25,718 bases of DNA from positions 1-25,718 of the IMG/VR virus record IMGVR_UViG_3300044608_000519; one strand, written 5' to 3'. This DNA comes from a virus. The notes beneath the pieces are model-generated. The model searched no databases. It had not been told where the DNA came from and saw only the letters and a list, made by a program, of their open reading frames with translations. This document shows positions 2,459 to 24,915 of the stretch, one piece after another (the first letter of the stretch is position 1; each line of letters begins with the position of its first letter). A program made the position numbers and the translations under genes.

Positions 2459-5400
2459 TTATGCTTTTCTAGTACCAGCCAATGAACCACCGAATCTTTG
2501 TTGATCGCGAATAACATCAAGAACTGCTCCATATATTCTATTATTAAGATTATTAGATAATTCAACATCTTGTTGTTTATAAGAAGTATTGTTCGCGCCC
2601 ATTTGAATATTACCATCTCTATTTACTGTGGTATTAAAATTAAATGAATTACTAGCATTACTATTATTAACAGTATTAGAATTATTAGCAACTGGGGACA
2701 TTCCACCAGCTTGCATTCCTGTACCATATTTTTTAACAATTGGTGAATTATACAATCCACCCTCCATATAACCGGGAATTGTATCAGATAAACGAGAACC
2801 AATTAAACCACCTGTTTGACGACCATATCCAGTAAAACCACTAAATCCTGTTCTAACAACTTGAGGCCCAATATAAACACCACTTGGACTTAATAAACCT
2901 TTATTCATAAATCCTGTAATAGAAGATGATTCTGCTGCTGTTAAAGGTGCGCCTTGTTGTAATTTTTGAGACAAATTTTGAGCTTTTCCAGCTTTCACGT
3001 TAGCCATTTTATTACTTATTCCCGCACCAATTCCAGCAACAGCAACTGCTGCTGCCAAACTACCAACCATTTGCGCGGTTTGAGCTTGTCTTGCTCGTTT
3101 TTTCTGACGAGCTTCTTCAGCTTTTCTAATCTCCTCATCACGCAATTCTTTATATAAAGAACTATTTTCAAGACCAAAAGTAGTCATACCATCTTCCATA
3201 GCTTTAACATTGCTTAATTCTGCGCTAAATGATCCACCACTTGCGAATCTTGGTGCAGCAGAAAAATTTAAAGTGTCAAGCGCGGCTGGTCCACCCATTG
3301 CCATAACCGCATTTCTATTTAATACATATTCACCATTCTCAAGCATCGCTGGATATTTATCTCCAGATCCAGTTCCTGAAACATACATACCCGATTGTGC
3401 GCGTACAACACCACCTTTTTGAGCCGTAAATAGACTTTCAATTCCTGATCCACTTATCAATTTTGAAACACCAACTTCCATTAATCTACTACTAATAATA
3501 TCTAAGAAATTAGCAGCAACACCTAAAAGAGCATCGCCTAAATTATCTGTTTCTTTTACTGCTGCTTTGATGGCATTTACCATTCCATCTCTAAAAAGCG
3601 CTGGAGTATCTCTAGCTAATCTATTTAAACCGGTATCAGCTTCATCTCTTAAAGCGTCAAAACCTTCTTTGAATCCATAAACTATAGAAGTTGATCTTTT
3701 AGCATTTCTCAATTCTTCGTTATTAAGGCGTTTTGTTATTTCTTCTTCTTTTAGTTTGCCATTAACAATATCGTTTTGAACAGTCTTTAATTTTTCTAAT
3801 GTTCTGACTCTTTCATTTTCTAATGTTGGATCGGCAAATGGACTTTGTTGTAATTGAGATATAGCTTGAGATAGTGTTTGACTATTTGTTATATCTATAG
3901 ATTTTATATTTCTAGCTTGCTCTCTTAAACCGATAGCTTGCATTGGACGACCCTCAAATTCAGATTGAGCGGCCATTTTTGTTAAATTAGTTTGTTGTTT
4001 TTCGATTAATGATTGATAATCAGACTGAGCAGACTTTGATCTACTAATTTCTAAATCAACAAGTTTTTTTGTTGTTGTTTCATTTCGTAATGCAATTTTA
4101 GATTCAGCTTTTCCTATAACTCCTCTGCCTAGAAAATTACCTTGATCGGCCATTTTTCTTTCGATAGCGTCTATTTCTAATTCAGAATTTGTTTTTCTAG
4201 TAGCCTCGATTCTTTCTTGATCGCCTAATAATTGAATTTGTTTTTGCAATAATGTTGCTTGAAACTCTGTAGTTTTTGCGCGTATTTGTTCTACACGACC
4301 TTGTAAATCTGTTAATTTTAATTGATTGACATTGCTTCTATTTTGTTTGTCTACTGATCTGTTAAATTCTTCATAGATTTTTTTTAAATCATTAATAATT
4401 GCGGGATCAAATGGGCTTGGCCCTGTAATCGAACTTTCTTGTAATATCGCTTGAAGACCTGAAAGATCTCCAGTTTGCGCTTTCTCTAATGCTGGTCTTA
4501 TCTTACTTTGAATAACTTCAGAACTAGGATTTAATTTTAAAAATTTTTCTTGATTTTCTTTTACGAAATTTAAATTTAATTCTGTTAATTTATCTTGACC
4601 TTCTGATATTGTTTTTGTTCTTTGAGTTTTTAATTTTTCTGTAGCTATAGATAAAGGACTAAGAATACCTTCTGCCAATGAAAATTTAAAATTATTTATT
4701 TCATCTAAAAGCTTTCTGCCAAAATCATCTTGTTCTAATTGCGCATTTGCTTCGCCTATTTGTTTTAAAATAGATGAACTTAAATCATTTCTTAGTTTTA
4801 ATAAATTACCTTCTTTTCTAGCATTTTCTATAATATTATTTATAAATTGATTTCCAGAAGATAACTCTTTTAAAATTTCCTCCTTATCTTTTCTAAGCAA
4901 GAGTTCAAGAATAGATTCTTGAAAAATTTTTATTTGTTCTGCCGTGCCTTTATTTCCAATTGTCGATTTAGCTATATTCTCAGCTAATCGTTTAGCAGCA
5001 TTTGAACTCGCTTCGGTAACAACTTCAATTTCTTCAGGGACCGTCTCTTGACCAGGAATTATTTCAGGCATTATTTTTTCTCTTTGTAATTTAAAGGATT
5101 GAAGTTGATCAAACAAATCTTTATTTAATCCTAAAGATTTTAATTCTTTAACTCTTTCTCCAATCTGAACTCCCCCTTGAGTTTTTCCACCTTTAACCCC
5201 AGAAGCAAAAGACAACGCAGCAGTTAATATATTTTTATCAGTTTCGTACTTACTCAATACAGAATTTAAAGCTTCTACTCCACCTTTTGTTTTGCTCAGT
5301 TCATCTGCTAATTTAATATCTGTAATTTGATTAAATGATTCTGATAAACTTTTACTAGCTAATTCTAATTTATCAGACGAAGCGCCAGAAGCTAAAAGTT

Positions 5401-8400
5401 TTGCATATTCTTGTTGAGCTTGAATATATTTTTGACCAGCAGAAATATTTTGTTGACTATTTTGTCTTTGATTATCAGCCATTTCAGCAAGATCTTCAGC
5501 ACTTAATTCTGCTGCATTTAAAGCAGAAACGAAACCAACTAAAGCTCCAGTAGCAGCACCAACTCCTGCACCTATTGGCCCAAAAGCTGCACCAATACCA
5601 GCACCTGTAGAAACAGCGCTCAATCCAGTGCTTAAACCCGACTGAAGAGATCTTTCAGTAGCTGTCATTTCAGTTCTCTTTTTATTACCGAAAACAGCTT
5701 GTTCCGCAAAACCTGCGATAGTAGGACCAAGAATTGCTATTGCCGTACTAGCTTTAGATAATCCTTCTGAAAGTTTATCGAATCTATTATTTCCTTTAGA
5801 ATCGCTTGTGTTTATTTGTTCATTATTTCTACCTTTTTTAAAAGTTTGTTCTCTTAAACTTTTTATCGCATCTATTCCAACACTTGATACTGATGAATCA
5901 ACTTCAGAAAACATTGATTTTATTTTATCAACTGTTGATCTATAAGTCTTCTTAACATCTCTTAAAGCTTCTTTAGCGTAATTTTCAATATAACTTTCTA
6001 CTTCAACAGCATTGGAGCTTGATTGAGTATTTTGAGTTTGATTTTTTTTACCTTGCTTTTTTGGAGCAAAATTTGGAATATATCCTTTATTCATCAATCC
6101 AGCATTCTTCTGTCCTCTCATTGAATCACTCAAAGCATTTCCTAAACCACCATGATCAGCAATTGCGGAACTAAATGTTGGCTGACTACTGTTTCTAATG
6201 TGTGGGAAAGGCTTGGTATCGAATATGGCTTTTTCTCCGCTCATGCTTTCTTCTAAGCCCATTACTGCTTGTTTATATGCAAAGTTGGGAATAAAGCCTT
6301 CACTCAAACCAAACATTCCTTGATCATTAGGATAAGTCTTAGCAAATTCTGTCGCTAATTTACTAAATACGTCTGGATTATTTAAATTTAAATTTCTTTT
6401 CTTTGCTGTTTCTATTAGCCAATTTTTCTGAAAAGAGTTTCTTCCTTTTATGGAATTAAAATTAGGAATAAAACCTGAAGCATGAGAATTAATCAATTCA
6501 ATTAATGCCATATCTAATTTTGCGGCATTGTATTTATGACTAGCTATTCCACTTTCAAAATCAGACATCGCAATTTCCTTACCATTGATTAAAAGCTTAG
6601 AACTCTTAGCCATCTTCGCCCAAGACAATTGAGGAAAAATAGCTTTTGCGGGAATAGATTTGCCGCTCGCATAATCCGCCAAAGCTTGTTCTTGTGGTAA
6701 TAATACAGATTTAATAGTACTGCCAGAACCAATTTTTTCAGCAATGTTTCCATATAATTGAGACCCTAATCCTTGACCTCTAAATTTTTTACCAACTTCA
6801 ACGCCTTCGATTTCATAATTATTTTTGCCTGTTTTTATTGCCGATATATTTCCTTTTCCTTTTATAGAGGAAGATATCATTGAAGCAAAATTAGGAATAA
6901 AACCTCCATATGTAGTATTTTTCTTAGCTTCGTATCTTCTTAATAAACCATCAGTAACTTTTGTAAGTTTTGCGCTTATTGATGGATCAACATTTGAATA
7001 CTTATCTTTAACAATTGATGCAGCGGCCATTTCAAATTCGCTGAAATTTGCACCAGCATTTCTACCAGTAGGATCAGTAAATTTTGGTCTATTTGAAACA
7101 GCAATCATTGAGCTAACTTTCTTAGCTAATACTGGATTTTCTTTTTCGAGATTTGCAAGTTTTTTATTCATGAATCCAGTGACTGACCCAGAAACGTTTT
7201 TGAAATCTTGTTTCAACTCTAACATGCTATATGAACCATCAGCAATTCTATATAATAAATCAAAATCATTCTCATTTGCTATATCGCTTACAGGTTTATT
7301 TTTAAATCCAACTTCTGATGGTCTTATTACTTTTTTTGAACCTAAAGCTATATTTAATGCAGATCTAACAAAGTCTTCATGCAAGTAAGAAAGCATGTTA
7401 GCATTTCCTTTTTTAGCGTATTCATGATCTGAACCTCTTCCATAAGTAGGAAAATCTCCCATCTTAAAAAGATCTGTATCACCAGTAGCATTTTTATATT
7501 TACTAGAATATTTTTTGAACCAAGGAATACTTGCAGTAGTCATTGGTGTAGCAAAATTAGGAATAAAACCAGAACCATATACTCTATCTTGAGCAAATTG
7601 CATCTTTATTTTTCTTCTTAAAATAGGATTAAAGTCCAATTCAGAAACTCCATTTAATAAAGTCTTTTTAGCTGTAGTGTTTAGACTAGAAATAGAAGAG
7701 GTTTCTATTTGTTTTGGAACATCTGAACCTTCACCAATAATTTCTGTGTATCTTGGACGAATAAATAAATCTCCTAAAACATCTGGTTGAGAAATGATAG
7801 AGGTTTTATCATCAATTTTTAATCTTTTTGTTTTTGATCCTTGTTTTGGTGAATAAGCGTAATAATTCTGACCTATATGATTAATAACTTTACTTATATT
7901 TTCTGCGCTGGTATGCCCTAAACCAGAGTGTGCATCAGCAAAAGTATTCGATTGATATAGTTTTGGATTAAAATTTTTATTTATTGGTTTTTCTAAAACC
8001 TCTTTAAAATCTATAGGTTTATTGCGAGAAGGAGGAACTTTAATATCAAATCCAACAGATTGTTCAAATGCCCTACCTACTGAAAATTGAGATGGACTTT
8101 TTTTAACAAAATTAGGTATAAATCCATTAAACATATATGGATCAACACCTGTTCTACTTATAGCATTTTGTCTATGTGCGCGACCAGCTTTTGATCCAGC
8201 AGGAGGATTAATAAAAGGTTGAGCAAAACCGGGAATATATTTAACATCTTCCGCAGTATTCATTACTCCACCAACAGGAGACGAAACAACTCTGCCGGGA
8301 GCGTAGCCACCAGCTTGTGCGCCAACTACCTCTGCCATTCTTGTTGCAGCGGGAATATATCCTCCTGCGCGAGTAACTTGTAATCCACCAGATCCTTTTA

Positions 8401-10003
8401 CTCTTACTCCTTGAGTAGCTAATTGAGCGGCTAATTGTTTAGCAAGTGTAGACTGCATTTGATATTCTGCTGTCTGTTGTCTGGCTATTTGAAGCAATAA
8501 TTGTGCTTGCGCTGCTTGGTTACCCATCATTCCAGCAAGAGCTTGTGATGCTGGTCCTTGTTGCTGCATGATTTGCAAAATAGATTGTTCAATATTTTTT
8601 CTATTTTGTGTTTCTGTAGTAATACCAGCAATCTGAGGCAAAGCTTGAGATAGATAAGTAAAAGAATTCTGTATTAACTTAAAAAGAGTAAAAAATGCAG
8701 CAATAGCACCGGGACCAGCTATTACATTTCTAATACCTTTTAATAAACCATTCGCAAAAGTAGAACCAACTCCTTCTCCTTCAAGAATTTCATTCATTGA
8801 TTCAACGAATGATTTTAATTGCTCAGTACCGTATTTAGCCAATGGCTCAAATGTTACTTTGCCAATATTATTTGCCAACTGTTGAGTAGAAGTAGCAGTT
8901 TGTTTTAGCAAAGCGTCGAGAGTTTGATTTAATTTAGCAGTCGCGATTTCTGCTTCATTTGTTGCTGATGCGCCTCTTTGTAAAGCACCAGCATATGTAC
9001 CCTGCGATTTATTTAAATCATTAACAATTGCTTTTAAGATGTTAACTTGATAAACACCCGCAACTTGTTCTGACAATTGCGCTCTTTGTGCATCAGCTAA
9101 ACCTCTGTAAGCTCCAGCAAAGTTTTGTAGTATTTGAACAGCAGGTAAAATATTTCCTTGGACATCTCTAACAGAGATATTAAAAGCTTCCAACTGATCT
9201 AAAGTATCAGTACGTTGTAAACGAGTGAAAATTGTTTTTAGTGCGTTACCGATTACCGCGCCACCTCTTGCTGTGCTTTGTTGAGCTGAAGTAACCAATG
9301 CATTCAATTGATCTAAGCTTACTCCTGCTTCTTGAGCCGCTTGGCCTGTACGAGATAATGCTTCAGCAAGATCACCAGCGCCAACAGCATAATCTTGTTC
9401 TACTGCAACTAGCTTATTTAATATTTGAGTTGTAGTAATTCCAGTTGCAGCAAAACCGTTTACAGTAGAAGTTAAAGCGTCAACTGCATTTGCAGTTCCA
9501 ATTCCTGCTAATCTTGTTAATGTAAGAGCGTCTTTTGTTCTTTGTAATGTTTCTTCAGCTTTTAAACCTTGACGAGAGAATTCAAGAGCAGCTTTAGAAG
9601 CGTCATCAAATGAAGAAGCTGTTTGTTTAGTTACATTAAATAAATCTGTACTAAATTTTTGTAACTGACTGGTGGTTAAGCCGAATACACGATTAATGTC
9701 AGCAAGATTTTTTTCTACTTCTATAGTTACATTTGCCAACTCTTTAAAACTGCGAATGACACCACCAAGTACAGCAGTAGAAGCTCCGAATGCAATAACG
9801 CGAGCATTAGAAGCGGCTAGTGCTGCTTCAAAGTCTTTAACATCGCCCGTCATTCTGCCAAGAGGCTGAGAGAAAGCTCGCTGATTAACTGTCAAATTAA
9901 GCTGGTTATTCTGAGCGAATCTTTGATTATACGCTTGAACACCAGCTTGAATAGAAGCGGTTAATGCTGCTTGATTGGCCGCGACATTAATTTGAACTGC
10001 CAT
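2459..10003 (-). CDS. Tail tape measure protein with embedded enzyme-like domains
   Basis: At 2514 aa this is the largest protein of the window; it sets tail length and is threaded inside the tube. Residues about 30-370 match the phage tail tape measure core of the TP901/PhageMin_Tail type: long Ala/Gln/Thr-rich helices with the typical TSSFDDASKAALEFSRQGL and ARGGAVIGNALKTIFTRL stretches. Hydrophobic segments lie near residues 430-445, 1415-1440 and 1460-1495. Residues about 1500-2100 are coiled-coil-rich. The C-terminal part has the common tape-measure motif GGVVRAQSGMYVSG...ENGEYVLNRNAV near 2205-2240. Residues about 627-1313 are unusual: six GFIPNF[A/V/N] motifs separate five inserts, one GNAT-like and one nuclease-like. 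At about 0.15 nm per residue the whole chain would imply a tail near 375 nm, less if the inserts are globular. No lysozyme or peptidase domain is evident. ATG start in an AAATATGG context; two candidate chaperone genes lie just upstream. Confidence 0.9.
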   Translation of the reverse strand: MAVQINVAANQAALTASIQAGVQAYNQRFAQNNQLNLTVNQRAFSQPLGRMTGDVKDFEAALAASNARVIAFGASTAVLGGVIRSFKELANVTIEVEKNLADINRVFGLTTSQLQKFSTDLFNVTKQTASSFDDASKAALEFSRQGLKAEETLQRTKDALTLTRLAGIGTANAVDALTSTVNGFAATGITTTQILNKLVAVEQDYAVGAGDLAEALSRTGQAAQEAGVSLDQLNALVTSAQQSTARGGAVIGNALKTIFTRLQRTDTLDQLEAFNISVRDVQGNILPAVQILQNFAGAYRGLADAQRAQLSEQVAGVYQVNILKAIVNDLNKSQGTYAGALQRGASATNEAEIATAKLNQTLDALLKQTATSTQQLANNIGKVTFEPLAKYGTEQLKSFVESMNEILEGEGVGSTFANGLLKGIRNVIAGPGAIAAFFTLFKLIQNSFTYLSQALPQIAGITTETQNRKNIEQSILQIMQQQGPASQALAGMMGNQAAQAQLLLQIARQQTAEYQMQSTLAKQLAAQLATQGVRVKGSGGLQVTRAGGYIPAATRMAEVVGAQAGGYAPGRVVSSPVGGVMNTAEDVKYIPGFAQPFINPPAGSKAGRAHRQNAISRTGVDPYMFNGFIPNFVKKSPSQFSVGRAFEQSVGFDIKVPPSRNKPIDFKEVLEKPINKNFNPKLYQSNTFADAHSGLGHTSAENISKVINHIGQNYYAYSPKQGSKTKRLKIDDKTSIISQPDVLGDLFIRPRYTEIIGEGSDVPKQIETSSISSLNTTAKKTLLNGVSELDFNPILRRKIKMQFAQDRVYGSGFIPNFATPMTTASIPWFKKYSSKYKNATGDTDLFKMGDFPTYGRGSDHEYAKKGNANMLSYLHEDFVRSALNIALGSKKVIRPSEVGFKNKPVSDIANENDFDLLYRIADGSYSMLELKQDFKNVSGSVTGFMNKKLANLEKENPVLAKKVSSMIAVSNRPKFTDPTGRNAGANFSEFEMAAASIVKDKYSNVDPSISAKLTKVTDGLLRRYEAKKNTTYGGFIPNFASMISSSIKGKGNISAIKTGKNNYEIEGVEVGKKFRGQGLGSQLYGNIAEKIGSGSTIKSVLLPQEQALADYASGKSIPAKAIFPQLSWAKMAKSSKLLINGKEIAMSDFESGIASHKYNAAKLDMALIELINSHASGFIPNFNSIKGRNSFQKNWLIETAKKRNLNLNNPDVFSKLATEFAKTYPNDQGMFGLSEGFIPNFAYKQAVMGLEESMSGEKAIFDTKPFPHIRNSSQPTFSSAIADHGGLGNALSDSMRGQKNAGLMNKGYIPNFAPKKQGKKNQTQNTQSSSNAVEVESYIENYAKEALRDVKKTYRSTVDKIKSMFSEVDSSVSSVGIDAIKSLREQTFKKGRNNEQINTSDSKGNNRFDKLSEGLSKASTAIAILGPTIAGFAEQAVFGNKKRTEMTATERSLQSGLSTGLSAVSTGAGIGAAFGPIGAGVGAATGALVGFVSALNAAELSAEDLAEMADNQRQNSQQNISAGQKYIQAQQEYAKLLASGASSDKLELASKSLSESFNQITDIKLADELSKTKGGVEALNSVLSKYETDKNILTAALSFASGVKGGKTQGGVQIGERVKELKSLGLNKDLFDQLQSFKLQREKIMPEIIPGQETVPEEIEVVTEASSNAAKRLAENIAKSTIGNKGTAEQIKIFQESILELLLRKDKEEILKELSSGNQFINNIIENARKEGNLLKLRNDLSSSILKQIGEANAQLEQDDFGRKLLDEINNFKFSLAEGILSPLSIATEKLKTQRTKTISEGQDKLTELNLNFVKENQEKFLKLNPSSEVIQSKIRPALEKAQTGDLSGLQAILQESSITGPSPFDPAIINDLKKIYEEFNRSVDKQNRSNVNQLKLTDLQGRVEQIRAKTTEFQATLLQKQIQLLGDQERIEATRKTNSELEIDAIERKMADQGNFLGRGVIGKAESKIALRNETTTKKLVDLEISRSKSAQSDYQSLIEKQQTNLTKMAAQSEFEGRPMQAIGLREQARNIKSIDITNSQTLSQAISQLQQSPFADPTLENERVRTLEKLKTVQNDIVNGKLKEEEITKRLNNEELRNAKRSTSIVYGFKEGFDALRDEADTGLNRLARDTPALFRDGMVNAIKAAVKETDNLGDALLGVAANFLDIISSRLMEVGVSKLISGSGIESLFTAQKGGVVRAQSGMYVSGTGSGDKYPAMLENGEYVLNRNAVMAMGGPAALDTLNFSAAPRFASGGSFSAELSNVKAMEDGMTTFGLENSSLYKELRDEEIRKAEEARQKKRARQAQTAQMVGSLAAAVAVAGIGAGISNKMANVKAGKAQNLSQKLQQGAPLTAAESSSITGFMNKGLLSPSGVYIGPQVVRTGFSGFTGYGRQTGGLIGSRLSDTIPGYMEGGLYNSPIVKKYGTGMQAGGMSPVANNSNTVNNSNASNSFNFNTTVNRDGNIQMGANNTSYKQQDVELSNNLNNRIYGAVLDVIRDQQRFGGSLAGTRKA
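6086..6454 (-). other. Tape-measure inserts 4 and 5 (residues ~1184-1306), small modules
   Basis: Two short segments are separated by the GFIPNFA at 6278-6298. The first (about 52 residues) is helical and basic, with NSFQKNWLIETAKKRN near its start. The second (about 64 residues) contains MSGEKAIFDTKPFPHIRNSS and then SAIADHGGLGNALSDSM. The His, Asp and Gly pattern is distinctive, but I cannot tie it to an enzyme family. They have no evident catalytic motif and may be recognition or cleavage tags. Confidence 0.3.
6476..6883 (-). other. Tape-measure insert 3 (residues ~1041-1176), GNAT acetyltransferase-like domain
   Basis: Between the third and fourth intact GFIPNF motifs is a 136-residue domain with a strand (NNYEIEGVEVG) running into FRGQGLGSQLYGNIAEKI. 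That is the R/Q-x-x-G-x-G/A acetyl-CoA pyrophosphate loop plus helix of GNAT enzymes (motif A, residues 1074-1080). A strand IKSVLLP and then QEQALADYASG follow, in the position where GNATs have the strand and helix of motif B. The length is close to a minimal GNAT fold. Known GNATs modify small molecules or protein amines; the substrate here cannot be inferred. I see no stop or break, so it is translated as part of the tape measure. Confidence 0.6.
6905..7549 (-). other. Tape-measure insert 2 (residues ~819-1033), PD-(D/E)XK nuclease-like
   Basis: Between the second and third intact GFIPNF motifs lies a 215-residue segment with a helix (LHEDFVRSALNIALG), then NENDFDLLYRIADGSYSMLELKQDF in two strand-like stretches. 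Aspartates at residues 913 and 915, followed by E929-L-K931, fit the spacing of a PD-(D/E)XK nuclease core (D, 10-20 residues, E-x-K). A helical Lys-rich region and a strand-like IAVSNRP follow. The call rests on motif spacing and predicted order only. Confidence 0.45.
7571..8104 (-). other. Tape-measure insert 1 (residues ~634-811), possible nuclease-like domain
   Basis: This segment lies between the first two intact GFIPNF motifs. It is mixed alpha/beta and charged, unlike the Ala/Gln-rich helices before it. It begins with SVGRAFEQSVGFDIK, followed by NKPIDF and then NTFADAHSGLGHTSAENI. An AFE helix followed by a short strand ending in ID could be the start of a restriction-endonuclease-like fold, but no convincing E-x-K follows. 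The domain is therefore unassigned, with nuclease-like only one option. Confidence 0.35.
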
Positions 10004-10031: not shown

Positions 10032-11027
10032 TTATCCGAATATTTTCATCATATCGTCCATGCTCAAAGAACCACCCTTCTTCTTTGCTTCATCAGCCAA
10101 AGAAAGAGTTTTTTGACCTTTTGTCTTTAATCCCACATATTCAAGATCTTCGCTAGTCGCACCAACTATTGAACTAGCTTGATTTTCTTTATTGTTTTTA
10201 TTTTCTATTACTTTCTTAGCGTTTTCATTTGCATTTACATAATCAATAATCTTATCAGGATCATTTTTAATATCTTGAGGCATTTTATCATTCTGCTGAA
10301 ATACGTTCTTGAAAAATCTAGAATAAATAAGTAATTTTACTTGATTGTAAGTCAGTTCGCACACTGATTTACCAAAGAATTCAGTAGGATTTTCAGCAAA
10401 TGGCATATATAAATTAAAAAAATCTTGTAAAACCAAATACTGAATCGTATTGTCATTTATATTTTTATATACTTCTGAGTATTGTTTTATAATACAAGTC
10501 AGCGTTTCTGAGTCGATATTATCAAATTGATCTTCTTCAAAAGCTGGTTTCGATAGGCTTTTATCTTTATAAAGACATTTCAAAATATAAAAATCATTAA
10601 CTCTTTCTTCAGCGTAGCTTTCGGCAGTGCGATTAAAAAAAGAAGCTTTAGTATTTTTAAGATCGTATAATCGTTTTTGTCCCGATTCTATATCTGTATT
10701 TACTCTTTGTATTTCTGATTTTAAATATAATACTTTCTTTTGCTTATTAAGATTATCAATAAAATCTTCTTCTTGTTTAATTAACGATTCTTGTTTTGTA
10801 GACCATTGTTTTTCTTCAATGAGGCGCTTTAAAGTTTCATCATTAGTAGGAACACCGCGACTTTTAGCTTCATCAAAATAATGATCATAGATCTGATCGA
10901 TATCGACCTGATCTTCCAAAGACAAATGCTTTAAATAAAAAAAATTCTCTAAAACTTTTATTTCAGAGAATCCATTTTTAATATCCCGAAAAGCTTTTTT
11001 ATACTTATTCTGTTGGGACTGTTCCAT
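10032..11027 (-). CDS. Candidate tail assembly chaperone 2 (coiled-coil protein before tape measure)
   Basis: This 331-aa, highly charged and mostly helical protein lies directly upstream of the tape measure (28-bp gap) and overlaps the preceding gene by 23 bases. The pair occupies the place of the two tail assembly chaperones (lambda G and GT type) that coat and fold the tape measure. A coiled coil is likely around residues 75-130. The Lys-rich tail ends in SLSMDDMMKIFG, a possible docking peptide. Unlike most of the window, its ATG has a plausible Shine-Dalgarno sequence (GGAG six bases upstream, inside the previous gene). An in-frame TAG lies directly before the ATG, so the start is well fixed and this is not an extension of the upstream frame. 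The role is inferred from position; I do not recognise the family. Confidence 0.45.
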   Translation of the reverse strand: MEQSQQNKYKKAFRDIKNGFSEIKVLENFFYLKHLSLEDQVDIDQIYDHYFDEAKSRGVPTNDETLKRLIEEKQWSTKQESLIKQEEDFIDNLNKQKKVLYLKSEIQRVNTDIESGQKRLYDLKNTKASFFNRTAESYAEERVNDFYILKCLYKDKSLSKPAFEEDQFDNIDSETLTCIIKQYSEVYKNINDNTIQYLVLQDFFNLYMPFAENPTEFFGKSVCELTYNQVKLLIYSRFFKNVFQQNDKMPQDIKNDPDKIIDYVNANENAKKVIENKNNKENQASSIVGATSEDLEYVGLKTKGQKTLSLADEAKKKGGSLSMDDMMKIFG

Positions 11028-11784
11028 CTATTTCTCCAATAATTCTATCGAACTCTTCCTTTTCTGTATTGCTAGTAAAGAACCAATAACTAATAATACT
11101 AGCTAGTTTGCTATAGCACTTTTCATAAATTTCATTTTTATTTTCTTCGTAATCAAACATCGCAGCTTCCTTGACATCGAACGTCTTGCCGGGAAATAGC
11201 CATTCAAATTCAGGATTCTTCTTGCTATTATCCTTAAATTGAGTAAGGTTCAGAACGTACCATAGAATCGCTCTATTCTGAGCTTTAATGTCTGCGGTAT
11301 GATTAAACAAAGTCATGTAACTAGTTTCTTTTTCAATTAACGTCTTACGACGCTGGAGAATTTCTGAAGTTACCTTTTCAATCTTTTGCTTGTAATCTTC
11401 ATCGCGTTCCGACTCTGGTTTTAGATTAAGAATAGTTAATCTGCTTTGCAAATCTCCAATTTCTCCAGCGGCAGAAACCATGATCTTAGCATCACTATCG
11501 CTAATTAAACCACCAGTATCGCTATATTTATTTAGTAACATCGCCTTTGTCAAAATCCCATTTCTGATACATCTGCTCATTTCAATACTGAATTCCATAT
11601 CAGCTTCCTGCATTTGTTTGCGATTTGGTTGAAGAATATTAATCTCAACAGGAATCTGCTTCTTTACTTTTTCTTTATAAGTTCTTGTTACCTGTTCTCC
11701 TTGTTCATTTGTTACTGTTTCAGTCTTATCTTCCTCGACCTCGGCATTTTTAAAAATATTGAAACTATATAGAGACTTTGACAT
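11005..11784 (-). CDS. Candidate tail assembly chaperone 1
   Basis: This 259-aa acidic, helical protein is the first gene of the left minus-strand operon. It starts at the AT-rich divergent spacer and ends inside the next gene. Residues about 50-95 contain PNRKQMQEADMEFSIEMSRC followed by GILTKAMLLNKYSDTGG. This reminds me of helical virion-assembly proteins in T4-like and related phages, but I cannot name a domain with certainty. The middle (about 100-150) is a likely coiled coil. Its position before the tape measure, with an overlapping partner, suggests a tail assembly chaperone. The start ATG is preceded by TAAATAAATT with no Shine-Dalgarno sequence. Confidence 0.45.
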   Translation of the reverse strand: MSKSLYSFNIFKNAEVEEDKTETVTNEQGEQVTRTYKEKVKKQIPVEINILQPNRKQMQEADMEFSIEMSRCIRNGILTKAMLLNKYSDTGGLISDSDAKIMVSAAGEIGDLQSRLTILNLKPESERDEDYKQKIEKVTSEILQRRKTLIEKETSYMTLFNHTADIKAQNRAILWYVLNLTQFKDNSKKNPEFEWLFPGKTFDVKEAAMFDYEENKNEIYEKCYSKLASIISYWFFTSNTEKEEFDRIIGEIDGTVPTE

Positions 11785-15654: not shown

Positions 15655-16191
15655 TTAACCATTAAAGCTTGGCATTGGAGGAAATGACGGTAAAGAAATA
15701 TTAGAAGCTGAAGTTGGAATCGTGGGCCAAACAGCTTGAGTGATATCAGGTACGTCAAGCATACTTCTTAACTGTTGTCTAAAAGTTTTAAAATCATTTT
15801 TAGCAACATCAGAGATTGGCGCATCACTTAATTGCGTAAAATCAGTCAACAAAAGATACTGATCTCTTGTCATTCTTATACTAGATTTGATTCTATTGAT
15901 TCTTATTTCTTCTTCTGATGGTGTAACGTCAACTACAGTATAATTTTCTTGGCATGTTTTATTTTGTGTGTTTAGTGTCCATGATGTTTCTATTTTTTGA
16001 TGAATATTAATTGTTGGAAGCGGATCGCTATTTACAACCCAAAATCCTTCGTTGTTTCCAGACCATGATAAATCAGCTAATTTATCATCAGGTAACACAA
16101 AAATATTAGATATGTTTTTATAACTTGTAGGAAGCGGCGCTGGTGTAGAAACTATTTCGTTATTTACTACTAAAACGTATTTTTTATCCAT
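15655..16191 (-). CDS. Phage_tail_APC-like tail fibre assembly chaperone
   Basis: The 178-aa protein has a strand-rich first half (VLVVNNEIVSTPAPLP) and a C-terminal segment near residues 100-160 with RDQYLLLTDFTQLSDAPIS, then FRQQLR and finally AVWPTIP. This matches the pattern of the phage tail assembly chaperone family (Phage_tail_APC: a D-W/F-T-Q-L-x-D-x-P motif, then a Y/F-R-x-x-L-R helix, then W-P). The protein probably helps fibres fold or attach. Its location just downstream of the fibre genes agrees. The tail is Pro/Ser-rich. It starts one base after the stop of the preceding gene. Confidence 0.65.
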   Translation of the reverse strand: MDKKYVLVVNNEIVSTPAPLPTSYKNISNIFVLPDDKLADLSWSGNNEGFWVVNSDPLPTINIHQKIETSWTLNTQNKTCQENYTVVDVTPSEEEIRINRIKSSIRMTRDQYLLLTDFTQLSDAPISDVAKNDFKTFRQQLRSMLDVPDITQAVWPTIPTSASNISLPSFPPMPSFNG

Positions 16192-17763: not shown

Positions 17764-20700
17764 TTATAGATTTTGACCTACAATGATTGCATAAATATTA
17801 GTGCCGCCATCATAAGTAACAAATTGATAAATATCGCGTTTAGAACTTGCGGTTGTAAGAGTTGGGGCTGTACCTCCAGGCCATTTTACTGCGGCTGGCC
17901 AAGTTATTGAATAACCAACACCACCGCCAACTGTTACAATTGTCCACATATGAACAATACCGCTTGCTTGAATATTTGATAAAGTTAATGTTGTTATTGT
18001 TGCGGCGAGAGTTAATTCTGTTACGTTATATTGAGTATTAATTGTTGTTGAAGCTGTTGCAGATACAGCTACTCTTTCACCAAAAGTATTTCTTGTTCTT
18101 ACTAATAATAAATTACTAGTAGAATTTGGATCTAAATAATAACCAGTATCATTGTTATCATAAAATATTGGCGCTCTCATATCAGCACTAGCAATTGCAA
18201 CGCCACTTTGATTTACAGTAAATACATTAGATCCTCCTGAATTTCTATAAATAAGCAAATCAGCAGCTTGAATGTACCAATGATTTGAATGATATTGTAT
18301 TTTACCTGAAAATTCTCCATCCCAAGTTGAAGAATCAGATCTCCATGAACCAACTGTTCTCAATGATGTTGTTGAATTAGGATCAAGATAATAGCCAGTA
18401 TTATTACTATCGTAGAAAATTGGCGCTCTAAAAGAAGAAGCGACCCAATTATTTCCAGACATGTCTAATTCCCAACGATTTGCGGATGCGCTCCAGCCAC
18501 CAATACGCATTATATTGTCTGGATCTAATCCCATATTAACAGCATAATATCCTCCACGATGGAATGACATACCTGCTGCACCAGCGTCATTTGAAAATGC
18601 TTGCAAAGCGTAATTGCTATTAGCTCCAACTGTAGATGTAGAGCCTTTATCAGATCTAAAATAATTTACGCCAGTTAATGTATTAGTAGTTCCAGTATAA
18701 ACACCATTTGTAACAGTAGCAGCGTTGCCATCAATGCTTATTCCTGTTAATGTTTGACTTGCGGATGATCTATTAATTGCAACTGATGTTGTACCAATAA
18801 ACATCGTTTGATTAGTTGCGGCAGCACCTAACTCAGCAAGACTCCAAGAAACGCTTGCGCTACCATCTACTGATTTACCTGTTGAACCAATGGTTATTGT
18901 TCTTGCTGTACCCCAAGTAGCGGTGGTGATCGCAGCAGAACCATTAAAAGATGTTCCATTAATATTTCTTGCAGTTTGCAAAGTTGTGGCTGTAGTTGAA
19001 TTTCCGCTTAAAGCAGCAGTAATTGTACCTGCTGAAAAATTACCAGAACTATCTCTTAAAACAATTGTATTTACTGTATTAGCTGTAGCAGAAGCATATC
19101 CATCCAATAAATCTGCATCTAATCCTGAACCAGCACCATCATTGTTATTATGCCAAAATCTATTCCAAGTTCCAGCGGTGCCATTTGTGGTCGTTCTAGT
19201 ATAAATATCTCCTAGATTTCCACCAGTCATTCTTATAGCTAGAGTATTACTATAATAAGTGACAGGATCGCCATGACCCATACGAATAGCATTATACCAC
19301 TCTCCATCTGGATTTAATGTTGTATTGCCAGAAACTTGCCAATATTGCAATTTATTGCCACCTACATTCCCCGTATTAGAATCAACGCTTCCAGAACCTC
19401 CGCTTACACTTCCAGTAATAGTATTAGCTACAGTTAAACCAACAATATTACTTGTGCTATTTGGATCAACATAATAAGCTGTATTATTAATATCATAAAA
19501 CGATTGAGCGTAAATAGTATTTACAACTCTTACATTGCTGTCAAGACTTCCAACTGAAAAGATTTCTGTTCCATTACCAAAAGCATTATTGTAAAATCGT
19601 ACGCCACCATAATTAGGATAGGCTCCTATTCTTATTCCAGTGTGCCAGTTTAATGCAAGCTTAGAATAATTCCCTCCGACATTCTCCATTGTGGTAAATA
19701 TTCTATAATATCCGCTATTTTCATCTCCACCAAATGTTATACCATTACCAAACCCTTCACCCGCAGCAGAACTATATGGCGTTGAGCCAGTAGCGCCGAA
19801 ATTTATTCTAGTAAATGTTTTTGCTCCTCCTATTGATTGATCTCCTGTAGTATAAACACCATTTGTAACAGTAGCAGAATTACCAGTACAAGAACCAGCA
19901 GTAGCTACTGTTTGAGATCCAATATTACCACTATGAATCATCTCTACCCAACTTCTTAAATTTGGCCAAGCGCTTCTCCAAAAAAATCTATTATCAGCTT
20001 CTCCAGCACAAAGCATCTGGAAACCATATGCTTGTGAATTATTTACATGATTATAATGGAAACCCTGAAGTCCTACATAATGAGTTGAACCCCCTGGAGC
20101 ATTTGCTGGGCTGCTCCAACTATCAATAAAACCAGAACCCCAATTAGAAAACATGACATTACAATCAACAGTACCATAACCCATTGTACCATTACGATAT
20201 AATGATGAACCATTATATCTATTAACATAAGGTGAATTGACATGCATTGAATTCATGTCATTATAAGACATAGTAAGAGTACTAAACTTGTTTAAGTTAG
20301 AAGTACCTGCGGGATCTAGATAAAAAGCTGTATCGTCACTATCGTAGAAAATTGGCGCACGAACATCAGATCTTACCGTTAATCCACCAAATAAATGATT
20401 AGCAACAGTTGAAACTGTTGCACTAGTTGCTGCTCCTTGATTTCCTCTTACTTCTTGACCACTAGCAATTTCTATAGAATTAGCGGGTGTTGTTAATTGC
20501 TCAGTAAGAGAAGAATAATATATAGTTGGAGATCCAAGTTTACTTATAACTTTCCAAGTTTTATAAGATGACCATTCTGCTGCGGTTAACAACCAAACAT
20601 CATTGTTATTATCAACACGAATCAGTATTTGCATACTGTCTCCATTTAGTTTTTCTAACTTAACACTAAATGTTTGACTATTAAATGCAGAAACAGAAAG

Positions 20701-23700
20701 TAGAGCGAGACCGAAAGGATTATAATTTACATCTGTTTTGTATGTTATTAATATGGCTGCATGTGTATTGCCACCACCAACATTTGCAATTTTTGTCCAA
20801 TAAAAACTCATTGCACTTCCACTCCAGTAATAAGTATTACCAGAACCACCGGGAAGATTTTCTCTATTAGTTATACTTACTAAATTACTTCCACTATTCG
20901 GATCTACATAGTAACTAGTATCATTACTATCATAGAATATTTGCGCTCTCATTGACGATCCATCAGCCAATGAATAATCTCCACCGACAACTCTTAATCT
21001 CCAATTACCATCTTGATTTAAAATTCCTACATGATTATTGGTATCTGCATAAAAATATCCACGAACTGTTCCGTTGTGTCCTCCAGTTCTTAACCTTATT
21101 CCTTGTGCGCTTGCAGAACTTGCAATATTCCAATAATTAGCGCTATCAGAATAAAAATGTTGTCCAGTTGTTTCATTGTATAAACCATTACCACTACTAT
21201 TATTTCTGAACCAACCACCAGTATAATATTGCGCTGCTGTTATATTACCGGCTGCGGTAATGGCATTCAAGTTGCTTGTGCTAGCGGGATCACAATAATA
21301 ACCTGTATTGTCCCAATCATAAAAAAGTGTTCCACGAATATCGCCTGGAGTTCTAAAACTTCCTCCTCCCCACGCGCCTTTGAACACGCCATTTTGTAGT
21401 ATTAATAATCCGTGATCTGCTAAATTTGCAGCGACACCACCAAAATTGGGATGCGACCAAGCTAGTCCATATAAAGTGCCAACTCCTGTTCCATCTGCGG
21501 TTAATTTATAAGAGTTACCCATTGCAAATACACCTTGCAATCTAGTAGCAGAATATAAACCAACTACAGTATTTCCATAATTGTCATCTATATAAAAATC
21601 ACCATTTGCTCTTGTTGCTTTTGTTGCGAGAGTTGTTGTTGCTGAATTTCCATCGATACTAACTCCAGTAAGAGTTTGAGAAGCTGATGATCTATTGATA
21701 GCAACAGACGTTGTACCAATGAACATTGTTTGATTAGTTGCTGCCGCACCTAATTCAGCAAGGTTCCAAGAAACGTTTGCGCTACCATCTACGGATTTAC
21801 CTGTGGAACCGATAGTCAATGTTCTTGCTGTACCCCAAGTTGCAGTGGTAATGGCAGCAGAACCGTTGAAAGAGGTTCCATTGATGTTTCTAGCTGTTTG
21901 TAGTATTGTCGCTGTTGCCGCATTACCAGTACATGAAGCAGAGCTTCCACCAGCATTACCTGTGATGCTTCCAGTTATTGTATTTACTACGGTTAAACCA
22001 ACTAAATTACTAGTACTCGCAGCATCAATATAATAAGAAGTATTATCACTATCATAAAAAATAGGCGCTCTAAAACTATATCCAGATTGAATATAACCAC
22101 TTGAATACGCAATCATATTTGTTATTTGTGTACCTCCTGCTTTTGTCCAAAAATGTAAATTACCAGTAGCCCAACCATTTGCAGTACCCGCTGTCTTTTG
22201 AGCGGCCAAACCTGCAATACTTACCGTATTTCCAGCACCAGCGGCTTCTCTACTACCCATCGATAATTTTGTCCAAGTGTTATTTGTGCCATTTAAATTG
22301 TAAATAAATAATCCTACAGGAGCTTGATCAATTGCTCCAGTAGCTGAATTATCTTTTCTTATTATTAATGGAGGAGATTGCAAATAACTACTACTAGCAT
22401 CAACATAAGAATCATACATCTGAACATTGTTGCTAGAAGTTAATCCGCCAATACCCATCGAAGAAATTAACGAAAAACTAGCAGGATCAATATAATAAGT
22501 AGTATCACCACTGTCGTAAAAAATAGGCGCACGAAAATCACTTGATGCAAATCCAGTTCCACCGACATGTAAACTAAAAGAAGCGTAATTATCACCACCA
22601 GTTGTTGTTCTTATATTACCAGAAGAATCTATAGTAAACACTCCAGAATCACTATTGTTTCTGAATATAAAATTATTAGCTGTTTTTACATATGTAGTGC
22701 CGCTGCTTTCAAAATAAAATCTTCCTTTGCCTTCTACTGATGTATGCCAAACTCCTGTAGCAGCATTCATATTATTCAAAGTAGATAAACTCAAAGCATT
22801 TATAACAGAAGTGCCTGCTGCATTTATGTAAAAAGCGGTATTATCTGAATCGTAGTATATTGGCGAACGAATATCTGTTGATGCAGTGACCACACCAGTG
22901 CCAGTATTAATAGAAAATACTGAAGATCCATAATAATTAGAAAAACTTGGATCTTGAGCGTTACCTTCCCAAATTTGCCTCTTGAAAGTAAAAGTAGTTG
23001 GTCCAGAGTTTGCACCATACAACATTATTTCTTGCAAATTATCACCAGCACCAATTGGCATAATGCCGCCAGATTCACTACCATTACCGAAACCAAGACC
23101 ATAAGGAGCAGGACGATCTCCAGTTGTTCTATACATTGCTGGAGGACAGAATCCTCTTATTTCTAAGAATGTAGGACCACTTGGAGAAACTAATCCTGTG
23201 ACTGTTTCTATATCTACATTTGACGAATTTTTTGATCTACGAGATCCAACTGTATAAGCCAATGTTCCAAAAGTCATTGTTCCTGCAACAGTAAGATTAT
23301 TTAAATTACTAGTGCTTGCTGGATCGCAATAATAAGCAGTATTTCCTGCGTCATAAAATGTATTAGCATATAAAGATCCTGTACTAGATTGTATGTATAC
23401 TGATGCACAAGAATAAGCTAATGTTGTTGAAGTTCCAGCGCCCCAAAGAACTGGGTATGCTGTAGAGTCGGTTCTACTTGGCGAATAAGTTACTGTACCT
23501 GAATTACCATCAATATTTATACCAGTTAAACTTTGAGAAGCAGATCCTCTATTTAAAGCTATTGCAGTTGTTCCTATATAAACCGTACTATTTCCTAAAA
23601 CACCTGATGGAATCGTTCCGCTAAGATTTCCTGCTGTTAAAGTAGATGCTGTTGTTAATGCGGTATTTCCACCAACAGTCAAAGCATTTAAAACAGATGT

Positions 23701-24915
23701 ACCAGCGGCATCAATATAATATGCAGTATTGTTAGAGTCGTAAAAAATAGGAGCGCGAACTGAACCGTTTGCATAAACAATTCCTGAACCTACACTTCCT
23801 ACTCCATAACCAGTTCCTAAACTTAATCCTACTCCAATATTATTATTGAAAGTGAAATTACCCCAACCATCGGATCTAAATAAACCTTCTTGAGTAACAT
23901 CGGTTCTTGTGGTTCTTATTATAGATCCTTCGTTATCCTTAACATAGTAAACATAATTTCCAGCACTATCTGCGCCTAATTTTATATTACCACGAACATC
24001 TAATACCTGAGTAGGACTTACAGTACCTATACCAACATTACCACTAGAAAGAATACTAAATCTATCAAGAAAACTACCACCATGATTAAATGTATAATGT
24101 AAACCAGAAGTATTTGTAGCGCCAGTCTGAACAAATTTTATATCAAGCATTGCATTTGCAGTTCCACCGTTTGGATTTACTCTAAATCCTAAAACAGCCA
24201 TTGCATTTGTTGTCGAACTTTCGTTAACAATAGATAGCATTCTATCTGTATCACCAACATCAGTATTAGCTGCGAAAGTACTATTATCTGTAAATCCAAC
24301 AGTTAAACCAGAAGTCGATCTAGAAGCCGCACCACCAATTCTTGTACTAGCTGCTACTATTAATGCATTTAAATTACTAGTACTTGCGGCATCTAAATAA
24401 TAACCAGTATTATCACTATCATAAAAGATTGGTGATCTAAAAGATCCTGGCTCTAATGTATAATTACTATATTTTGATAATTCACCAGTCGTAGCTCCAC
24501 CACCAAAAATTCTTGTTAACGCAGAAGTGCTTCCTGAATTACCATAACCTATATACATACCATCTGTAGTAGCATTATTACGCATAACTCTCATGTTAGC
24601 GTATACATCGCTACTTGCTGTATCAAACGCACTAAATATTCTTAAACTAGATAAATTAGAAACACTGTTTGGATTAACATAATAAGCAGTGTCGTTGGAA
24701 TCATAAAAAATAGGAGCGCGAAAATCAGAACCCGCTGACACAGTTCCATTATCATAAAAGACAGTATTGTTGGCGTCATTGGCATTTCTTATGACAAAGA
24801 CAGTGCTACCATTTGTAGTTAATGCTTTTATATCTAATCTGAACCCAGGATTGATATTTCCTATACCGACGTTGCCGCTTGAATTTTTAAATGTTGGATA
24901 ATATGTAATAGGCAT
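17764..24915 (-). CDS. Giant tail fibre protein with FYDS/YY repeats
   Basis: This 2383-aa protein starts with YPTFKNSSGNVGIGNINPGF, a fibre VGIG-type motif. It then carries 13 copies of a 23-residue module (consensus RAPIFYDSNNTAYYVDPNST with SNL after it), spaced 252-1083 bp apart. The sequences between modules differ and are Gly/Asn/Ser/Thr-rich and beta. Two 84-residue blocks are near duplicates. The C-terminus (AVKWPGGTAPTL, then KRDIYQFVTYDGGTNIYAII) looks like a small beta tip domain; I see no S74 peptidase chaperone at the end. The protein would form a very long trimeric fibre for host adsorption. No membrane segments or signal peptide. It begins 4 bases after the upstream fibre stop, in an AACAATATG context. 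Confidence 0.85.
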   Translation of the reverse strand: MPITYYPTFKNSSGNVGIGNINPGFRLDIKALTTNGSTVFVIRNANDANNTVFYDNGTVSAGSDFRAPIFYDSNDTAYYVNPNSVSNLSSLRIFSAFDTASSDVYANMRVMRNNATTDGMYIGYGNSGSTSALTRIFGGGATTGELSKYSNYTLEPGSFRSPIFYDSDNTGYYLDAASTSNLNALIVAASTRIGGAASRSTSGLTVGFTDNSTFAANTDVGDTDRMLSIVNESSTTNAMAVLGFRVNPNGGTANAMLDIKFVQTGATNTSGLHYTFNHGGSFLDRFSILSSGNVGIGTVSPTQVLDVRGNIKLGADSAGNYVYYVKDNEGSIIRTTRTDVTQEGLFRSDGWGNFTFNNNIGVGLSLGTGYGVGSVGSGIVYANGSVRAPIFYDSNNTAYYIDAAGTSVLNALTVGGNTALTTASTLTAGNLSGTIPSGVLGNSTVYIGTTAIALNRGSASQSLTGINIDGNSGTVTYSPSRTDSTAYPVLWGAGTSTTLAYSCASVYIQSSTGSLYANTFYDAGNTAYYCDPASTSNLNNLTVAGTMTFGTLAYTVGSRRSKNSSNVDIETVTGLVSPSGPTFLEIRGFCPPAMYRTTGDRPAPYGLGFGNGSESGGIMPIGAGDNLQEIMLYGANSGPTTFTFKRQIWEGNAQDPSFSNYYGSSVFSINTGTGVVTASTDIRSPIYYDSDNTAFYINAAGTSVINALSLSTLNNMNAATGVWHTSVEGKGRFYFESSGTTYVKTANNFIFRNNSDSGVFTIDSSGNIRTTTGGDNYASFSLHVGGTGFASSDFRAPIFYDSGDTTYYIDPASFSLISSMGIGGLTSSNNVQMYDSYVDASSSYLQSPPLIIRKDNSATGAIDQAPVGLFIYNLNGTNNTWTKLSMGSREAAGAGNTVSIAGLAAQKTAGTANGWATGNLHFWTKAGGTQITNMIAYSSGYIQSGYSFRAPIFYDSDNTSYYIDAASTSNLVGLTVVNTITGSITGNAGGSSASCTGNAATATILQTARNINGTSFNGSAAITTATWGTARTLTIGSTGKSVDGSANVSWNLAELGAAATNQTMFIGTTSVAINRSSASQTLTGVSIDGNSATTTLATKATRANGDFYIDDNYGNTVVGLYSATRLQGVFAMGNSYKLTADGTGVGTLYGLAWSHPNFGGVAANLADHGLLILQNGVFKGAWGGGSFRTPGDIRGTLFYDWDNTGYYCDPASTSNLNAITAAGNITAAQYYTGGWFRNNSSGNGLYNETTGQHFYSDSANYWNIASSASAQGIRLRTGGHNGTVRGYFYADTNNHVGILNQDGNWRLRVVGGDYSLADGSSMRAQIFYDSNDTSYYVDPNSGSNLVSITNRENLPGGSGNTYYWSGSAMSFYWTKIANVGGGNTHAAILITYKTDVNYNPFGLALLSVSAFNSQTFSVKLEKLNGDSMQILIRVDNNNDVWLLTAAEWSSYKTWKVISKLGSPTIYYSSLTEQLTTPANSIEIASGQEVRGNQGAATSATVSTVANHLFGGLTVRSDVRAPIFYDSDDTAFYLDPAGTSNLNKFSTLTMSYNDMNSMHVNSPYVNRYNGSSLYRNGTMGYGTVDCNVMFSNWGSGFIDSWSSPANAPGGSTHYVGLQGFHYNHVNNSQAYGFQMLCAGEADNRFFWRSAWPNLRSWVEMIHSGNIGSQTVATAGSCTGNSATVTNGVYTTGDQSIGGAKTFTRINFGATGSTPYSSAAGEGFGNGITFGGDENSGYYRIFTTMENVGGNYSKLALNWHTGIRIGAYPNYGGVRFYNNAFGNGTEIFSVGSLDSNVRVVNTIYAQSFYDINNTAYYVDPNSTSNIVGLTVANTITGSVSGGSGSVDSNTGNVGGNKLQYWQVSGNTTLNPDGEWYNAIRMGHGDPVTYYSNTLAIRMTGGNLGDIYTRTTTNGTAGTWNRFWHNNNDGAGSGLDADLLDGYASATANTVNTIVLRDSSGNFSAGTITAALSGNSTTATTLQTARNINGTSFNGSAAITTATWGTARTITIGSTGKSVDGSASVSWSLAELGAAATNQTMFIGTTSVAINRSSASQTLTGISIDGNAATVTNGVYTGTTNTLTGVNYFRSDKGSTSTVGANSNYALQAFSNDAGAAGMSFHRGGYYAVNMGLDPDNIMRIGGWSASANRWELDMSGNNWVASSFRAPIFYDSNNTGYYLDPNSTTSLRTVGSWRSDSSTWDGEFSGKIQYHSNHWYIQAADLLIYRNSGGSNVFTVNQSGVAIASADMRAPIFYDNNDTGYYLDPNSTSNLLLVRTRNTFGERVAVSATASTTINTQYNVTELTLAATITTLTLSNIQASGIVHMWTIVTVGGGVGYSITWPAAVKWPGGTAPTLTTASSKRDIYQFVTYDGGTNIYAIIVGQNL
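18724..18975 (-). repeat. 84-residue fibre block, copy B
   Basis: This is the second copy of the block at 21646-21897. Only four residues differ (L/I, N/S, N/S, V/I). A shorter relative, YIGTTAIALNRGSASQSLTG followed by INIDGN, lies at 23503-23580 in the same gene. Confidence 0.88.
21646..21897 (-). repeat. 84-residue fibre block, copy A
   Basis: This block encodes TARNINGTSFNGSAAITTAT and continues to QTLTGVSIDGN. It pairs with copy B at 18724-18975: 80 of 84 residues are identical by my count, while about 43 of 252 bases differ. Confidence 0.88.
23503..23580 (-). repeat. Partial third copy of the IGTT-x-AINR fibre block
   Basis: This 26-residue segment (YIGTTAIALNRGSASQSLTG then INIDGN) matches the C-terminal third of the 84-residue blocks at 18724 and 21646. 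It lacks their N-terminal TARNINGTSF part. Confidence 0.75.

Follow-up and report, generated by a model that had tools for sequence, protein, structure and literature searches.

Why should a phage tape measure protein (TMP), which is usually regarded as a ruler and a conduit for DNA, hold within it what looks like an acetyltransferase? The question arises from a preliminary description of a single viral record of 25,718 bases (the whole stretch of DNA analysed here, referred to as the window), in which a GNAT-like domain was placed inside a tape measure at 6476–6883. The answer that seems to us reasonably likely is that the TMP acts as a carrier of folded enzyme modules that can be exchanged, that lie between GFIPNF separators, and that are injected at infection.

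By its N-terminal profile, the ORF concerned is a TP901-type TMP. It encodes 2514 aa on the minus strand (2459–10003), and its conserved N-terminal domain (residues 81–409; 8777–9763, minus strand) is matched by TIGR01760 with E = 2.9e-32 and 112.1 bits, the cut-off being 28.8. The protein is also matched by PhageMin_Tail (E = 9.1e-27) and by ten tape-measure PHROG families. The N-terminal domains of the TMPs form one family; when 24 were aligned, the remaining 23 were 38–83% identical to that of the window. The array of modules lies after this domain and before an extended C-terminal region that contains hydrophobic segments (residues 1421, 1477, and 2312). Just upstream of the TMP, also on the minus strand, are two ORFs (10032–11027 and 11005–11784) that overlap by 23 nt in different frames and occupy the usual position of the tail assembly chaperones, with no convincing family match. 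The same strand also encodes a tail fibre of 2383 aa (17764–24915; phrog_9017, E = 2.4e-10), in which the repeat IFYD-x-x-x-T-x-[YF]Y-x-[DN] occurs in eight copies, and a tail fibre assembly protein (15655–16191; phrog_4912, E = 2.1e-11).

The stretch 6476–6883 corresponds to TMP residues 1041–1176 and contains FRGQGLGSQLYGNIAEKI. Pfam, the PDB profiles, and the predicted fold all bore out a GNAT-like domain at this place. The limits first given to it cover the same stretch, the module being slightly wider (module 3, residues 1040–1176; 6476–6886, minus strand) and bounded by the GFIPNF motifs at 6458–6475 and 6887–6904. Searched alone, the stretch scored 23.4 bits with PF00583 (Acetyltransf_1), above the cut-off of 20.7, as it also did when the viral record was searched (23.8 bits); on the complete TMP the score was 18.7 bits, below the cut-off, and the other GNAT models scored below their own cut-offs. 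A profile built from five homologues retrieved 20 PDB sequences at E ≤ 1, 17 of which are acetyltransferases by name, the other three being YjdJ, a "transcriptional regulator," and a designed binder. With eight homologues there were 12 matches (best E = 3.9e-4), all of them named acetyltransferases except RibT. The expected R/Q-x-x-G-x-G/A acetyl-CoA loop is found as RGQGLG at residues 1075–1080 (6764–6781, minus strand); among nine aligned sequences, R-G-x-G is invariant and the final position is G, A, or S.

The AF2 model of the domain, built with nine sequences (pLDDT 76.5, pTM 0.60), predicts three strands, the RGQGLG loop, a helix (46–58), a strand (63–68), another helix, and later strands. 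The central GNAT fold (strands 2–4, helix 3, and strand 5 onward) is present in the model. In a Foldseek search against the PDB, the best 50 rows were all acetyltransferase or GNAT-like, with a best E of only 1.4e-3, and against viral structures the first rows were again mostly named acetyltransferases. VIA-align likewise returned GNAT entries, with a top Z of 8.6 over 100 residues (1y9w, rmsd 3.7), most VIA rows having a Z below 8, a range that the tool flags for common arrangements. The third VIA row is AcrVA5 (6iuf_B), with 93 of 95 residues aligned (Z 7.9, rmsd 3.4, 18% identity). AcrVA5 aligns from its start and most full-length GNAT entries from about residue 31–45 of their chain. Because most ordinary GNATs align only from there, the module looks like a minimal GNAT, apparently without the N-terminal strand 1 and helices 1–2 that are usual. 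Profiles and model together support the reading of residues 1034–1182 as a GNAT acetyltransferase-like domain of small size in which the acetyl-CoA-loop signature is intact.

Stepwise collection of homologues of the GNAT module in IMG/VR gave 10 loci on 10 contigs, and in each of the 10 a long ORF contains the domain, which fits precisely between two FIPNF-type motifs. Two are identical to the window module, two are 96–97% identical, and six are distant (31–36% over the matched segment). Between the window and L171 or L170, dS in the module is 0.29 or 0.26 and dN is 0.017 or 0.014, respectively (dN/dS of about 0.06), which indicates strong purifying selection on the GNAT protein.

The motifs that bound the GNAT module belong to a series. 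The window TMP has six copies of G[FY]IPNF, all on the minus strand, at residues 627 (8108–8125), 812 (7553–7570), 1034 (6887–6904), 1177 (6458–6475), 1236 (6281–6298), and 1307 (6068–6085), the last being a GYIPNF, recognized by the motif, with which the array ends. The other five were recognized both by the motif and by the DNA pattern; back-translated GFIPNF has five exact DNA matches in the window, all within the TMP ORF, where 0.00 were expected. Between the separators, on the same strand, are module 1 (residues 633–811; 7571–8107; cluster C2/D7), module 2 (residues 818–1033; 6905–7552), the GNAT module, a small module 4 (residues 1183–1235; 6299–6457; cluster C9), and a terminal module 5 (residues 1242–1306; 6086–6280) common to many arrays (34 members in cluster C1 and at least 39 in D1).

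Over at least 428 contexts, the consensus of the separator is [AS]-x-G-[FY]-[IV]-P-N-F-A; since these contexts were picked by a regular expression, only the flanking positions give free evidence. Codon use at the separator is close to that of the whole ORF, save that CCT and ATT are moderately favoured, and it therefore seems to be the protein motif that is kept, rather than a DNA word. Conservation at the DNA level was also considered, and with so mild a codon bias a constraint at the protein level was preferred. In two relatives (L041:11614–12840 and L023:10415–11395), fused modules have decayed motifs (GFIPHF, GCIPNF) between them, and are perhaps arrays in the course of losing a separator.

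A motif conserved as protein, with near-background codons, is also what a protease or binding site would look like. Proteases might accordingly free the modules while the tail is assembled, and the modules might then act in the cell that produces the phage, in late host control or superinfection exclusion, instead of in the next host; some phage tape measures are processed, as is well established. We regard this as unlikely, since ordinary genes could express such enzymes and their fusion to a tail protein would then bring no advantage. Delivery into the next cell is the reading we prefer.

Enzyme signatures are not confined to the GNAT module. In the window, module 2 is a putative PD-(D/E)XK nuclease, assigned from its conserved residues: in its family (D3), E, D, and the lysine of (E/D)xK are found in 26 of the 26 sequences listed and are also invariant in 20 aligned sequences. 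In D2, the largest family of long modules, E, D, K, and two glycines are the only fixed positions (37 of 37 among the matches listed). We take the E..D..(E/D)-x-K of both families to be the PD-(D/E)XK nuclease pattern. Nuclease-like clusters are connected by hhalign (probability 94 for D2–D6, 98 for D2–D39, 94 for D6–D16, and 91 for D16–D30), and modules of D2, D3, D6, or D10 occur in 59 of 73 arrays among the matches listed. A8 and A13, the profiles of the two nuclease-like families, retrieved no relatives from the PDB, and the AF2 model of the D3 module (pLDDT 56.9) gave only unrelated Foldseek rows.

In the relatives, other enzyme types were assigned by profile. A thermonuclease-like module, with the conserved residues KDGD..R..DA-x-E, matched the PDB at E = 1.5e-8 over 117 positions, and the profile of a P-loop module did so with a best E of 7.7e-7. 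In L094, a single TMP module (4883–6148, minus strand) joins a start that is P-loop-like by eye to a nucleotidyltransferase-associated region, in which the Pfam model HIGH_NTase1_ass scored above its cut-off (E = 3.4e-8). The variety of enzymes thus comprises, in the window, a supported GNAT and a nuclease by motif and, in the relatives, thermonuclease-like, P-loop, and nucleotidyltransferase modules by profile. The ADP-ribosyltransferase, kinase, HAD, and peptidase identities are presumptive, being given by motif without profile support: R..S-x-S..E is invariant in the four sequences of the ADP-ribosyltransferase-like family, and the ADP-ribosyltransferase-like, kinase-like, and HAD-like family profiles found no related sequence in the PDB. 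The majority of the modules had no Pfam match above cut-off.

Further GNAT candidates were rejected. Cluster D21 (e.g., L030:8365–8871) looked right by eye as a second GNAT family, had no Pfam match to a GNAT model and no match in the PDB, and was connected to the GNAT family by hhalign with a probability of 0.2, so that this identity was given up. In L023 module 4 and L041 module 2, the second halves (KGKGNASNLYGDI) gave E ≥ 0.37 against the window GNAT; a profile into which they were mixed performed poorly, and they too were discarded.

These signatures bear on whether the modules, the GNAT included, could be catalytically dead folds that serve as spacers or plugs of the tail tube, in an array that adjusts packing or the length of the tail. 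It is well established that the length of the TMP and that of the tail go together, and the total length of these TMPs varies widely with the number of modules. We nevertheless consider this reading quite improbable: the conserved residues are the ones that active sites would be expected to have (R-x-x-G-x-[G/A/S], E..D..(E/D)xK, KDGD..R..DA-x-E, and the P-loop), and a spacer has no need of unrelated folds bearing catalytic signatures. Active enzyme cargo remains the preferred reading of the array.

How widespread such arrays are was assessed with two sets of loci. The first was gathered with the TMP N-terminus as the sole query, the array being unseen, so that the choice of its 43 loci is independent of the motif. 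In 42 of 44 TMPs (the 43 loci and the window) modules could be cut out by the motifs, and the other two are truncated; this set yielded 170 modules (128 distinct) in 28 clusters. The second set, which is biased by its query, came from a search of viral contigs with the GFIPNFA DNA pattern and holds at least 119 stretches. Combined, the two sets contain at least 137 distinct ORFs with two or more motifs, and at least 377 distinct modules in at least 86 clusters. With the GNAT loci added, at least 109 distinct arrays contain no fewer than three motifs; the N-terminus is present in at least 73 of these, and in most of the 73 two to five modules have a length of 60 aa or more.

Among 50,697 records of phage isolates, tblastn found no match to residues 600–1320 (E ≤ 1) or to the L110 array (E ≤ 0.01), and the TMP N-terminus of L154 had distant matches only, such as YomI of SP-beta at about 31%. 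In metagenome-assembled genomes (MAGs), the TMP N-terminus was found at nine loci, five of them with the motif and three others short or fragmentary. By their titles, five of the nine MAGs are Flavobacteriaceae or Flavobacteriales, and Neomarinimicrobiota, Halobacteriovorax, Verrucomicrobiales, and Proteobacteria are represented by one each, the binning of phage contigs into MAGs being a weak guide to the host. The remaining locus, from a flavobacterial MAG, is a natural array-free relative (L183:9001–10194), a homologous TMP of 1449 aa without any separator. Our impression is that the array-bearing phages are mostly aquatic.

Modules are gained, lost, and exchanged between phages at the GFIPNF boundaries. 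The DNA of the window and that of L003 are 93.5% identical up to and through the motif at residue 1034, and L003 resumes at the window's motif at residue 1236; exactly two modules are missing, the GNAT and the next one being simply absent. In the comparison with L019, the GNAT module alone aligns (93.3%), ending at both motifs, and the first two modules of L019 have no DNA similarity to the window or only a local one. Over 666 pairs, among the matches listed, a motif centre lies no more than 30 nt away from 1448 of 1512 ends of homology inside arrays, compared with 240 of 1512 positions drawn at random. When a single end was kept for each query and 30-nt bin, the figures, again among the matches listed, are 286 of 329 for the observed ends and 51 for random positions. 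Part of this clustering arises because otherwise unrelated neighbours share the motif; the counts indicate that homology starts and stops at the motifs. The 23 closest relatives (among the matches listed) have 18 different module orders. In 5 of 267 module pairs, the similarity of the module exceeds that of the N-terminus by over 20 points; L010 and L035, for example, share a module that is 91% identical, while their N-termini are 64% identical.

Coincidence of the break-points with the motif would also be expected if the motifs were mere recombination hot spots, at which selfish coding cassettes insert harmlessly into a tolerant region and serve only themselves. Nucleases can drive their own spread, as is well established for homing endonucleases, and nuclease-like modules are those present in 59 of the 73 arrays among the matches listed. 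That the array consists of such passengers is nonetheless very improbable in our judgement: GNAT, P-loop, thermonuclease-like, and nucleotidyltransferase-like modules are unable to home alone, the near-background codons show that no DNA word is strongly kept at the motif, and the GNAT is under strong purifying selection. Modules that serve the phage as injected cargo remain the preferred reading.

The delivery of the modules into the cell is probable from what is known of TMP biology. The TMP, present in few copies, would fill the tail tube and be driven out into the cell before the DNA, and the modules would travel with it. In the siphophage JBD30, according to the accessible part of a structural paper, the TMP is a trimer that fills the channel with a density about 20 Å wide, has its C-terminus at the tip, and is expelled to form a conduit (PMC11445458). 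A channel density of this width, seen for one siphophage, would be too narrow for folded domains, and the modules are therefore probably threaded unfolded. They may then refold, or be cut free at or near the GFIPNF motifs, and be active once inside. For a virion with about three copies of the TMP, enzymes would be better cargo than stoichiometric inhibitors, which would explain why the recognizable cargo consists of enzymes.

Soon after infection begins, the GNAT might acetylate a protein of the host, most likely one involved in defence or transcription, the target being a guess; it may resemble AcrVA5 or the phage GNATs modifying host RNA polymerase that are mentioned in the accessible part of PMC7824862. 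A role as a virion-carried enzyme able to act at infection, which the preliminary description had put forward, would fit. Between phages, modules would be swapped by recombination at or near the DNA coding for the motif. A bolder version, to which we give an even chance, is that the tape measure is an open cargo train, in which GFIPNF-flanked enzymes are inserted, recombined at the separator, threaded, and released as a mixture for anti-defence and takeover; if true, such a TMP would be the phage counterpart of polymorphic toxin systems. Many uncultured phages seem to use the TMP as a chassis for protein delivery, with a standard joint provided by nature. The array makes the threading of enzymes through a tail directly testable, its catalogue of unassigned modules is likely to be rich in anti-defence activities, and the rule that recombination breaks at the separator is a guide for finding more arrays.

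In the literature searched, which included few subscription papers and no preprints, no description was found of GFIPNFA or GFIPNF arrays or of enzyme cargo modules in tape measures. Several known systems are related in part. SP-beta YomI, annotated as a tape measure or transglycosylase, has an enzyme inside a tape measure and a distantly homologous N-terminal domain; TMPs of its type, however, hold envelope-degrading domains, whereas a diverse series of intracellular-type enzymes is found here. AcrVA5 (6iuf), which according to the accessible part of PMC9114340 acetylates Cas12a and is a weapon of mobile elements against it, is a minimal GNAT, as the window module seems to be, with 93 of 95 residues aligned, but it is a free-standing protein and, at 18% identity, resembles the window GNAT at the level of the fold only. 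The Sle1-type effectors of actinobacterial contractile injection systems are likewise tape-measure-related, have a variable domain, and are packaged in a tail-like particle; as far as the accessible part of that paper goes (PMC13277306), they belong to a bacterial system and have a single variable C-terminal domain, in contrast to the several internal modules of a phage protein. Closest in content are the polyvalent proteins, large phage proteins of several domains for which injection along with the DNA has been proposed and which unite GNAT, ADP-ribosyltransferase, kinase, peptidase, and nucleic-acid enzymes (Iyer et al. 2017; PMC5512222). The accessible text of that paper does not contain the term "tape measure," and judged against it our system differs in having the tape measure as its carrier, one repeated separator, and a clean exchange of modules. 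Within the same limits, injected phage GNATs and ADP-ribosyltransferases were already known from polyvalent proteins, and what is new is a tape measure as the carrier, with a dedicated separator.
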